DNA of 30,994 nt from a virus, in IMG/VR virus record IMGVR_UViG_3300038701_000032, positions 1 through 30,994 of that record; one strand, written 5' to 3'. Below are positions 7,501 to 10,749 of this stretch, in pieces. Under the pieces are notes generated by a model that had not been told where the DNA came from, ran no database searches, and saw only the letters and a list, made by a program, of their open reading frames with translations. Each line of letters begins with the position of its first letter. Position 1 is the first letter of the stretch. Made by a program: the position numbers and the translations under genes.

Positions 7501-9233
7501 CCGAACCGGCGCTGGACCTCTTCGGCGAACGGCACAAGCGCATCGCTCGTGACCTGCCCTTGCTCCATCATCTTAATCAGTTCGGCAGTGCTGATCCCGA
7601 GGGCGTCGGCCATAAGCTGCACAGCACCGGGCAGGCGGTCGCCAAGCTGCTGCCGCAGTTCTTCCATCTGGACCGCGCCCTTCGACACGATCTGGGTCAG
7701 CGCCGTGAAGACACCCGCAAGTTCCTGTTGGCTGGCCCGATTGACCCGTGCCGCCTCGGCGATGCCCACGAAGATTCGCCGGGTGTTTTCGCCTTCGATA
7801 TTGGTGCCCTTGGTCGCCACGGCGAACTTGGAATACTCGGTCGCCAAGGATTGGAACTGGACACCCAGCCGGTCGGCTGTGCGACGGATGAAGTCCAACT
7901 CCTGAGCGGCCCGAGCACTGTCCTCGAAGGCCACCTTCAGGCGGGCGTTTACAGCCGCCAGCAACTCGGTCGCGTTGATCGTCTGTCGGATCGCCTCGAT
8001 AGCCGCGAACAAGCCGCCATAGGCCGCGACGAGGCTCAGGACCTCGCCACGGATGCGCTGCATGATCGAGAGCGACTGCCGGGTGTCTCCGTAGAACTGA
8101 CGGTAGGCTTGCGCCAGACGGCTCACAGAGGCCGCCTGCCGGTCGGCTGCGACTGCCCCATCTCTCTTAGCCCGAGCGGCTGTGGTGGCCCGTCCACGGA
8201 GCCTGTCCAGTTCCGCGTTGAGGGTCTTGGTCGATCCGGTGAAGCGGGAGACCGCCGCGTTGATGCTCTGCGTGCTGCTGCCCGCCTGAGCCATCGCTTG
8301 CCGCATCTGAGCGAGGGCGTTCCGGTTGGCGATGTATTCGTTCTTCGCCAGCGCAGCCCGAGCACGGGCCGCCTCGAACGACTGCACGAGGGCCTGCGAC
8401 GGACTCCGGGTCGCCGCCATCTGAGCGGCCAGTTCGCGGACGTTGCCGGTCGCTAGGTCCCACTGCGCCTTGGCGTCCACGGTCGCCCGCTTCTGCCGCA
8501 GCATCTCCGTCCGCAGTTGCCGCAGGCTGCCCGTTGCGAACTGCTGGATCGCGGCATCGGCCTTGTCGGTCGCTTGGCCCAGTTCGACCAGATCGCGTTC
8601 GGCTCGTTGTAGTTCGGCCTTGGACTTTTCGAGAGCCGCCCGAAGACGGTCCACGTCTTTCGCCATTCGCGTCTTCTGGCCGCCGGTCGCACGGACCTGC
8701 GCTCGCAGAGTGGCGTAGTTTTCCTTGATCGAGCGAAGCGCGGCCTCTTGGCGCTGGACCTTCTGGGTGGCCGCTTCGATGTCGGCCTCTGCTGTTTTCT
8801 GAGACCGGGAGAGCGCACGCAGTTCCGCCTTGGCCGCAGAGACCGCCGCCTTCTGCCGATCTTGTGCAGCGCGGGCACCTTCCAGCTTGCTCTGATACCG
8901 TTCAACGATGTCGGACTGGCGCTTCAGCGCCCGCTCCTGATCGCGCAGAGCGACCTCGGCTTCCTTAGTCTTAGCTTCCAGCCGATTGACCGCGTTGGCC
9001 GCGCGATCCATGCCCGCCGCCAGCTTATCGGTGCCGTCGCTCTGGGTCAGGATGCCGTTGAGGGTCTTCAGGGATTTGCCAAGGGCAGTAAGGGCCGTCT
9101 CGCCCTTCTCTGCGCCTTGGTCGAGTTTCTGGGTGCCTTCGTAGAAGTCGTTGAGTGCCCGAGTGATCGTATCGACCACTTTGGCGGCTTCATCCTTGGC
9201 GCGGATTACCAGATCAACGTCTTTACGTGCCAT
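4569..9233 (-). CDS. Tail tape measure protein with embedded lytic transglycosylase (SLT) domain
   Basis: The 1554-aa protein has the architecture of a tape measure. A long charged coiled-coil region (about 1-340) is followed by a TMP_2-type N-terminal domain (about 410-610, including QLGDRLPGAVQLMADALGI and the downstream GQVTSDALVPF). Hydrophobic segments lie near 650-690 and 715-740. Near residue 1012 the motif GVESGGNPSARNPNSSATG with GQFIESTW after it marks a soluble lytic transglycosylase fold; the Glu of VESGGN is the expected catalytic residue. A second coiled coil (about 1170-1330) and a hydrophobic helix near 1405-1435 precede a YHTGG-containing C-terminus. It sets tail length and probably cuts peptidoglycan during DNA entry. 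The ATG at 9233 lies 12 bases after the stop of the frameshifted chaperone, with GAGGGG upstream. Confidence 0.95.
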   Translation of the reverse strand: MARKDVDLVIRAKDEAAKVVDTITRALNDFYEGTQKLDQGAEKGETALTALGKSLKTLNGILTQSDGTDKLAAGMDRAANAVNRLEAKTKEAEVALRDQERALKRQSDIVERYQSKLEGARAAQDRQKAAVSAAKAELRALSRSQKTAEADIEAATQKVQRQEAALRSIKENYATLRAQVRATGGQKTRMAKDVDRLRAALEKSKAELQRAERDLVELGQATDKADAAIQQFATGSLRQLRTEMLRQKRATVDAKAQWDLATGNVRELAAQMAATRSPSQALVQSFEAARARAALAKNEYIANRNALAQMRQAMAQAGSSTQSINAAVSRFTGSTKTLNAELDRLRGRATTAARAKRDGAVAADRQAASVSRLAQAYRQFYGDTRQSLSIMQRIRGEVLSLVAAYGGLFAAIEAIRQTINATELLAAVNARLKVAFEDSARAAQELDFIRRTADRLGVQFQSLATEYSKFAVATKGTNIEGENTRRIFVGIAEAARVNRASQQELAGVFTALTQIVSKGAVQMEELRQQLGDRLPGAVQLMADALGISTAELIKMMEQGQVTSDALVPFAEEVQRRFGAGLPDAIQSTSAALGRLQNALFDVMILFGDSGFNDGFRTFLDSLTTLLTSADFESFVARAGAAMGKFFEFLALGVENFDLLLAAISAFIAFRLSFLIGAAALAFRDFGAGILASAAALRTGAASAGTMTASITALRGALTALLSSTGIGLLVAAIGAGVAYWATQADEATEALNLHKKIVDDVKDAYDAVGGSVEKWGEALADISETELQNNIDRISNAIDGLEDQLRLTANGTEDFWTNFFGTNLRASVIRVPREMRDAIEALSRQYADGQITAQEFRDGVDEANRSLGEGRETSTEFATRVIAAARNLEEMRTALDEAEAAMDAKTGTTEEAAEAAETLKVAVEQQIDELAEAQAQADRFTTAMAAMSEGLEQVTGHLEYLEASQALAEQGRQALEAASNFGEYLDALNRIRQAQDALDDQYVSSALGGSLVDRIIGVESGGNPSARNPNSSATGLGQFIESTWLRMFKQYFPDRASGLTDAAILALRENAELSRTMTELYLRENAEQLRRAGIAITDANLYLAHFLGPGGAIDLIGSPRGTVANDVLSEGAINSNQSILDGRTREEVIAWAQRKVGISEEELAVQESMIEIERRRAEEAERAAERAQAERDRAAEATADRLAEGEFDIEQQERMNAGLEREAAIQAAIRQAKQENAAITDEELARVAEQAGRLFDLEEIERRRKDAKEAHEAAEERVNQLLQQREALERQRNVALANNDVTTANALKTEIEGVNQAMLEAIDNAIRMWQAVGGPESQVAIAQLRAAKMEAQNFGQEGQNTYLQWNRVSGMFVDGLAGAIDSWAQAVANGENAIQAAGVAFRQFAADFLLQIAQMIIKQMIFNALQAVFGGTPFGSIIGLGHTGGLVGESRVGSGNNTRSVHPALFAGARRYHTGGIAGLAPNEVPIIAKKGEEILTEDDPRHMLNGSGGSGTPQKQQDVEVRNYMDAAEFFEAGAKTDAGRRIIYNIVKGFPG

Positions 9234-9245
9234 CAGCGGCCCCTC

Positions 9246-9943
9246 TTATTCAAACAGCCGGGGGTGTGCCCGAGTGGTGATGTTGAGTCGTTTTACCTGT
9301 TTGACCAGTTCGTTGCGAGCCTTCTTCGAGAAGACCGCCCAGACCGCCAGCTTCAGCAACTCGTTGACCGTGATGATCTGCCCGTTGACCCTTTCTGTAA
9401 TCAGGGCCGCCTCGTCAGAGAGACGGCCCAGAGTGTAGCGGTGCGCTTCAGTATGGCCGTGTTCGAGGCACAGGCTCAGTGAGCGACGGAGTCCCCAATA
9501 CCAGTCCCCGAAGCTGGGGATGTCACTTGCGAAAGGGTCGCTGTTCCCGCCACGAACATCCGCGTCAGAGACTCCACTAGCTTTTTTACGTCAGCCTCCG
9601 ACCGGAAGGTCAGAGTAAAGACCTTCTCGATGGCGTCGGCAGTGACGTGGGCTGGCACCTTCTTCAGACGGTTGACCAGATCGGGGTCATAATCGTCGGC
9701 GGCCATGCAGATCAGCGCGGCCAGAAGGTCCGGGAACTCCCGGCTCGCTTCGAGCACGGCTCCCCGGAGATCGGTCGTGTCGAAGTCACCCGCCTGCATC
9801 TTGGCAAAGACGGTCGCAAGCTGGGGGCCATAGTCAAAGGCCACCAGCATTAGGTCGTTGAGGGAAAGACCTCGCACCTCGAAGTTGACTTTCTCGTCAA
9901 CGGTCACGGTGTCGGTCAGGATCACGATGTCACGGATGCCCAT
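9246..9943 (-). CDS. Tail assembly chaperone fusion (gpGT-like), made by programmed -1 frameshift
   Basis: This is the inferred fusion product. Translation starts at 9943, shifts -1 on the heptamer A AAA AAG (9587-9581) after codon 121, and continues in the new frame to the TAA at 9248-9246. It gives about 232 residues. The -1 part reads ASGVSDADVRGGNSDPFASD and then IPSFGDWYWGLRRSLSL, ending TTRAHPRLFE. It has no start codon with a ribosome site of its own, and its frame is closed by a TGA just upstream of the slippery site (9593-9591). In lambda and many other siphoviruses, G and GT proteins made this way bind the tape measure and recruit tube subunits. The position directly before the tape measure gene fits exactly. 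Confidence 0.85.
9476..9943 (-). CDS. Tail assembly chaperone (gpG-like), unshifted product
   Basis: A 155-aa acidic protein starting MGIRDIVILTDTVTVDEKVN and ending GTGIGDSVAH. Its length and its location between the tail tube and tape measure genes match lambda gpG (about 140 aa). Those chaperones keep the tape measure soluble and guide tube assembly but are absent from the finished virion. The last 34 codons overlap the -1 frame used by the GT-like extension. A GAGAGGAC ribosome site lies upstream of the ATG. The alternative that the downstream frame is a separate gene is less likely, because it lacks its own start and joins this frame precisely at a classical slippery heptamer. Confidence 0.85.
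   Translation of the reverse strand: MGIRDIVILTDTVTVDEKVNFEVRGLSLNDLMLVAFDYGPQLATVFAKMQAGDFDTTDLRGAVLEASREFPDLLAALICMAADDYDPDLVNRLKKVPAHVTADAIEKVFTLTFRSEADVKKLVESLTRMFVAGTATLSQVTSPASGTGIGDSVAH
9576..9600 (-). promoter_or_regulatory. Programmed -1 ribosomal frameshift site (A AAA AAG with upstream SD-like GGAGG)
   Basis: On the minus strand the zero-frame codons GTA AAA AAG contain the heptamer A AAA AAG (9587-9581), the same slippery sequence used by E. coli dnaX. A GGAGG (9599-9595) sits seven bases upstream. An SD-like element upstream of the dnaX slippery site is known to stimulate shifting. Downstream, within about 80 bases, TCCCC and GGGGA can form a small stem (9520-9505), though it is farther away than a typical stimulatory hairpin. 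The -1 frame is open from the heptamer to 9246. Confidence 0.85.
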
Positions 9944-9966: not shown

Positions 9967-10749
9967 TTAGGAATAGGCGGGCATACCGTCGCGGTAGAAC
10001 GCCGCCCGGTCGGAACGCTTCATAATCTCCACGTTCAGCGGGATTTGTTGCCACTCGTCGCCTTTGAGGGCGTAGTCACCGGCAGGCATGATCTTGCACC
10101 ACGGGATGAGGATCATGGAGTCGGCACCCTTGGGGTTGAACGAGGTGAACTGGATCGAACCCTCGACCGGCTGGTTGCCCGAGATCACGACTTCACGGGT
10201 CGAGGCCGCGACCGCATAGGACACGTCGATGTCGATCCCTGCTGTCGCCACCAGAGAGCCAGACAGGAACGTAATCATGCCGCGATCCAGATCGACCTCG
10301 TAGTCTGTGCCCTCGACCAGCGCAGTCGCGCCGACGTTGGTAGCCACAGCGAAGCCGGTCGCGTCGATGCCCTTGTAGCCTGCCGGGTTGGTGTCCGACA
10401 TGCCGAGGAAGTAGGACATGCCCGGAATGATCGCAGTGATCGTCTCGGTCGCCAGAGGCACAGCCGCTTGGGTCAATGCGCTCTCGGAGCCGAGGAAGAA
10501 CAACGCGACGTTTGCAGGCGAGATGTTGTCCGTGATGAGCGAGCCGGTGCGGGTCGCTTCCAGCGTGATCCCGTCGTCCTGCTCACGGATGCCCCGGTCG
10601 GAGTTGAAGTGGCGAAGTTCCTCGGTGTCGATGGAGATCGAGAACTCGGGCGTGTTGCCGAGGTAGCGATAGCCTTCCGGGTTCTTCGTGTTGGTGATGA
10701 AGCGGGAGAAGCGGACTTCGCCGCGACCCAGCACATAGTTGTTCGACAT
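9967..10749 (-). CDS. Major tail tube protein (gpV-like position)
   Basis: A 260-aa beta-rich protein starting MSNNYVLGRGEVRFSRF. It has the tube-protein pattern GYRYLGNTPEFSISIDTEEL followed by RHFNSDRGIREQDD, then a run of short strands with few cysteines. Tail tube proteins of related siphoviruses share the early segment in which a name-like peptide (LGNTPEF) is followed by an H-x-N/S motif. It polymerises into the tail tube through which DNA passes. The gene sits between the terminator-position gene and the chaperone pair, exactly where lambda V lies. GAAAGGA is found about 8 bases before the ATG. The extra length over lambda gpV core domain may reflect an added C-terminal Ig-like surface domain, but I cannot resolve the fold by eye. 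Confidence 0.85.
   Translation of the reverse strand: MSNNYVLGRGEVRFSRFITNTKNPEGYRYLGNTPEFSISIDTEELRHFNSDRGIREQDDGITLEATRTGSLITDNISPANVALFFLGSESALTQAAVPLATETITAIIPGMSYFLGMSDTNPAGYKGIDATGFAVATNVGATALVEGTDYEVDLDRGMITFLSGSLVATAGIDIDVSYAVAASTREVVISGNQPVEGSIQFTSFNPKGADSMILIPWCKIMPAGDYALKGDEWQQIPLNVEIMKRSDRAAFYRDGMPAYS

Follow-up and report, generated by a model that had tools for sequence, protein, structure and literature searches.

The locus examined here lies between the major tail protein gene and the tape measure protein gene of a virus, where two overlapping frames, G and T, appear to encode the halves of a tail assembly chaperone, and it raises the question of how the second of these frames comes to be translated. 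The window, i.e., the whole stretch of DNA analysed, comprises 30,994 nucleotides (positions 1 to 30,994 of IMG/VR record IMGVR_UViG_3300038701_000032), and the relevant features are collected in the table below.

Features of the chaperone locus, in window coordinates
Feature	Coordinates	Strand	Evidence and remarks
Major tail protein gene	9967..10749	-	PHROG 807, E=3e-63; directly upstream of G
Gene G (155 aa), tail assembly chaperone in the zero frame	9476..9943	-	ORF, Pfam, PHROG, AlphaFold, Foldseek
SD-like stimulator GGAGG (putative)	9595..9599	-	Family-wide excess over synonymous recoding
Slippery heptamer A_AAA_AAG	9581..9587	-	Codons 119-121, GTA AAA AAG; conserved at aligned codon
Possible downstream stem-loop	9535..9574	-	Covariation in 14 sequences of nearest relatives
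-1 frame T part, entered at heptamer	9246..9587	-	Stop TAA 9248-9246; conserved core ~residues 24-102
Tape measure protein gene, 1554 aa	4569..9233	-	PHROG 2335, E=2e-207; Pfam TMP_3; directly downstream

The gene order is that of lambda, the tape measure ATG at 9233 lies 12 bases past the T-frame TAA, and the overlap of G and T between these two flanking genes is the siphovirus G/GT chaperone layout. G matches Pfam PF23789 (Pre_tape_measure; 99.8 bits, E=1.6e-28, against a curated cut-off of 27) as well as PHROG 5260 and PHROG 11703, its AlphaFold model has a pLDDT of 87.7, and Foldseek matches it to proteins annotated as tail chaperones in Casjensviridae-like phages. Profile hits of G to TAL-effector repeats were discarded as an artefact, in that weak repeats were summed with no single stretch passing in nearly all entries. 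The best match of the major tail protein is from Synechococcus virus S-ESS1 (59% identity), and on the sequence of this protein the window is placed near the Casjensviridae. Residues 1010-1213 of the tape measure protein match a transglycosylase family (PHROG 4067; Pfam SLT below cut-off).

Relatives were sampled as 80 IMG/VR loci, found via the major tail protein, together with 20 annotated phage regions; close-relative searches of IMG/VR with G alone and with T alone returned no matches, and the major tail protein query succeeded. From these, a non-redundant set of 59 loci sharing <80% identity was drawn. In several loci (L062, L063, L065, L066, L067, L069, L070 and L073), the major tail protein match extends over ~1.13 kb versus 0.77 kb, pointing to an insertion of ~120 aa within the protein.

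The T frame is open for 111 codons past the heptamer, such that a ribosome shifting after codon 121 of G would produce a protein of 121+111 = 232 aa. Upstream, the same frame is closed by a TGA located 3 nt ahead of the shifted-frame AAA AAA. The 232 positions of PHROG 11703 cover both halves, with G matching positions 1-130 and the -1 part matching positions 144-230 (E=7.9e-17); as a single family spans the two, databases evidently already contain the fused product from relatives. Indeed, a joined CDS is already annotated in BcepNazgul, AH2, RcPescado and Suzuki. The core of T is predicted by AlphaFold with a pLDDT of 93-97. A sequence-only reading of this DNA had previously placed the G ORF, A_AAA_AAG, GGAGG, the upstream TGA, the 111-codon -1 frame, its TAA, the 12-base gap and the 232-aa product, and all of these positions agree with the present ones.

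Some GenBank records present T as a separate short CDS, which would be appropriate were T a gene in its own right, with GGAGG as its ribosome-binding site and translation beginning at a start codon of T itself or through reinitiation. The T frame of the window, however, contains no ATG, GTG or TTG before codon 76 and none upstream, and codon 76, the first possible start, falls within the conserved core, which begins at codon 24. Likewise, 53 of the 59 loci have no upstream start in the T frame, and in the window no start codon of that frame stands at initiation spacing after GGAGG. With no start codon ahead of the conserved core, frameshifting is the only good route to T, and a separately initiated T gene is very improbable.

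Does the locus carry a credible site for such a shift? AAAAAAG occurs just once on the minus strand of the whole window (9587-9581, offset 356), and given the residues V-K-K, the codons GTA-AAA-AAG have a probability of 0.007 under the window's codon use. All 86 related loci having both parts place T at -1 relative to G. When a slippery sequence is defined as X_XXY_YYZ, GGAAAAN or GGGGGNN, the aligned codon carries one in 88% of the 59 loci, versus 0.2% at other G codons, and every one of the 59 has such a site within -9 to +12 nt (1.4% in the control). This exact site holds 31 of the 49 sense-strand occurrences of AAAAAAG in 404 kb. The commonest heptamers among the 59 loci are AAAAAAG (31), AAAAAAA (9), GGAAAAG (5) and GGGAAAC (4). 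In E. coli, A_AAG is the shiftiest tetramer, and A_AAA_AAG is among the most efficient heptamers when accompanied by stimulators (PMC4066793).

Slippage might instead be attributed to RNA polymerase, which on the A run would generate mRNAs with one base more or two bases fewer and thereby the -1 product. The six A's at the site, and up to seven in relatives, would provide the substrate, but bacterial cases have been described on runs of nine A or T (reviewed in PMC5009743). Furthermore, relatives bearing GGAAAAG, GGGAAAC or CCCAAAA preserve the same frame relation, and the conserved SD-like element discussed below acts on ribosomes. Polymerase slippage is thus a highly unlikely source of the fusion, and ribosomal frameshifting is the reading followed here.

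Some relatives have no canonical heptamer, which, like the absence of SD motifs in others and the unexceptional downstream folding of the window (both below), speaks against this reading. The sequence-only reading would have counted against frameshifting any close relatives with both frames intact and the heptamer gone, and taken literally such loss does occur: in L006, L008, L014 and L016, whose major tail proteins, at 58-64% identity, place them among the window's closest relatives, TTG GAA AAG or CTG GAA AAG replaces the window's GTA AAA AAG. The same four loci retain TCGGAGG at unchanged spacing. Since these four still have A_AAG for the slip, together with the SD-like element and an unchanged frame relation, they are better regarded as having a variable slip site than as evidence against frameshifting. 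G_GAA_AAG is also found in Rhodobacter phage RcPescado, where it lies in the gene annotated as a joined chaperone, and in Ruegeria phages. In all, it stands at the aligned codon in L006 (1871-1877), L008, L014, L016, L066, L067, L073, L087, L092 and L101, representing at least four separate groups of relatives; most of these loci have an SD-like GGAG or GGAGG at the same spacing. Slippage on G_GAA_AAG would oblige the P-site tRNA-Glu to re-pair from GAA to GGA through a central G:U pair. PRFect lists 'twofour' among the slip motifs of phage genomes, and its authors discuss G:U re-pairing for a related motif (PMC10885494); as a motif name, 'twofour' would fit GGAAAA. That G_GAA_AAG naturally takes the place of A_AAA_AAG in loci retaining the SD-like element is apparently unreported.

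The GGAGG of the window lies 7 nt 5' of the heptamer and 11 nt before the A-site codon AAG. Only the zero frame must code upstream of the slip, making synonymous recoding a fair null; accordingly, each locus was recoded with its own codon use and anti-SD pairing was scored by 8-mer start. The excess of pairing is greatest (z -5.4 to -7.0) for 8-mers beginning at approximately -16 to -12 relative to the heptamer, and it disappears a few bases to either side; nearer the heptamer, pairing falls below the synonymous null. Averaged over the peak offsets, z is -6.6 for the 59 loci, -5.7 for 48 and -3.9 for the 38 most divergent, values that are only indicative given that related loci are not fully independent, and none of 1000 simulations reached the observed pairing in any of the three sets. 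By the definition of Sharma et al. 2014 (PMC4066793), SD motifs are present in 43 of the 59 loci, against 29.5 expected and a maximum of 41 across 1000 simulations, and absent in 16. Together with the slip-site enrichment, this supports the earlier proposal of a -1 frameshifted chaperone with A_AAA_AAG and an SD-like stimulator.

It could be argued that frameshifting is real and that the SD-like element plays no stimulatory role, being a by-product of a conserved S/T-E-A/G stretch combined with GC-rich codon use. The protein sequence does provide a favourable amino-acid context, to which selection would add: more than half of the pairing strength is already given by the protein-only null, and the majority of loci, the window among them (p 0.17), fall short of significance when taken singly. 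Nonetheless, the pooled synonymous tests reject a by-product at all three redundancy cut-offs, and the excess is confined to a few bases. Codon choice argues in the same direction, with GAG preferred over GAA at the key codon (32:7 versus 308:252; p=7e-4) and G as the wobble base preceding the key E in 25 of 39 cases versus 170 of 560 elsewhere (p=3e-5). A mere by-product is therefore improbable, and comparison of the sequences indicates that the SD-like element is selected across relatives beyond protein requirement. Such family-wide SD conservation in Casjensviridae chaperone genes is apparently unreported, no account of it having been found in a literature whose coverage of key older work was incomplete.

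Downstream RNA structure tells a different story. Family-wide, the region 5-55 nt past the heptamer folds with z -0.59, compared with -0.11 to -0.74 for control segments, and structure as a family-wide stimulator was rejected on this basis. In the window, folding downstream of the heptamer does not exceed that of shuffled sequences (z -0.66, or +1.3 when the nearer 48 nt are taken), and a candidate long-range stem at 9488-9580 was no better than shuffles. In the nearest, S-ESS1-like clade, a stem GARUCCC/GGGGYUC (alignment A4, columns 14-23 with 44-53) starts 6 nt past the heptamer and covaries among 14 sequences, with six cells changed on both sides, a level that 0 of 500 shuffles attained and that was lower in slid controls. 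Both frames are coding at this point and independent events are few, rendering the covariation no more than suggestive; the stem is apparently unreported. Read from the alignment, 6 of the 9 pairs of the stem are retained in the window, where it is partly eroded.

Taken as a whole, the sequence elements, their frame relation, the homology and predicted folding of both halves, and the conservation of both the slip site and the SD-like element in excess of protein need make it nearly certain that programmed -1 frameshifting at A_AAA_AAG, aided by an SD-like stimulator, yields G and G-T chaperones; from these we infer the slippage itself, its rate and the chaperone function. Normal translation of G would give the 155-aa chaperone. 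Where lysyl-tRNAs occupy AAA and AAG, some of the ribosomes would slip back one base, a step promoted by GGAGG pairing behind them with the 16S anti-SD, and would read on in the -1 frame to the 232-aa fusion. In the lambda model, both G and GT attach to the tape measure protein, and recruitment of the major tail protein falls to T (PMC5009743). By analogy, the G part common to both products may here coat the tape measure protein, with the T part recruiting the major tail protein, in which case the slip rate would set the G:GT ratio. More tentatively, and with the balance tipping slightly against it, the SD-like element at fixed spacing may be the main conserved stimulator in Casjensviridae, kept as the heptamer drifts (including to the non-canonical G_GAA_AAG recurring in several lineages), with downstream structure being lineage-specific. 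Were this so, the chaperone ratio in this family would be determined by the anti-SD interaction and not by RNA folding.

The locus offers a clean, testable phage frameshift signal in which the SD-like stimulator appears to be under family-wide selection and the slip site is naturally variable. It also allows annotation to be corrected, as many Casjensviridae records lack G and/or T, split them or label them wrongly. It had been anticipated that annotation would miss the C-terminal half, which is in fact absent from many records. For example, the public record of S-ESS1 (L002:5796-6538, NC_052968), the closest named relative, annotates neither G nor T, and in many others T appears as a short CDS of its own or G bears the label 'tail length tape measure protein'.

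The closest known systems are AH2 and other Casjensviridae (BcepNazgul, RcPescado and Suzuki), which share homologous G and T, the same gene position and the same -1 shift. A_AAA_AAG in a tail chaperone had been put forward as notable for the window, but AAAAAAG had already been predicted for AH2 in a 2012 study of the Burkholderia phages KL1 and AH2 (PMC3483164), and the published site corresponds to the same aligned codon as the window's heptamer. That study also lists AAAAAAG, after Xu et al. 2004, for VT1-Sakai, psiM2, PVL, PV83, ul36 and a Borrelia prophage; for AH2, the heptamer and an mfold stem-loop are named, and the terms 'slippery' and 'Shine-Dalgarno' are absent from it (PMC3483164). 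Lambda gpG/gpGT likewise relies on a -1 frameshift that yields a fusion and lies immediately ahead of the tape measure gene, with the same gene order and proposed role. The lambda slip site is G_GGA_AAG, unlike that of the window, and the window's G falls in a sequence family of its own (PF23789). HK97 gp13 (PDB 2ob9) bears a weak fold resemblance to G (TM 0.52 by target), but at E=2.5 and 10% identity it is not a demonstrated homologue.

E. coli dnaX pairs A_AAA_AAG with an upstream SD-like element, as here, and has a stem ~6 nt downstream, as does the window's nearest clade, whereas in the window itself this stem is either weak or lost. In dnaX, frameshifting gives a shorter product at ~50% with the SD 10 nt away (PMC5009743); in the window, a longer fusion is predicted and the SD-like element is 7 nt away. 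The combination of A_AAA_AAG with an SD-like stimulator is familiar from dnaX and from IS elements (PMC5009743, PMC4066793), and of 13 IS and prophage clusters studied by Sharma et al., 3 had conserved SD elements (PMC4066793). G/GT frameshifting is already known in many tailed phages; the window's case is well supported and ordinary in kind, and the family-level result is modestly new.
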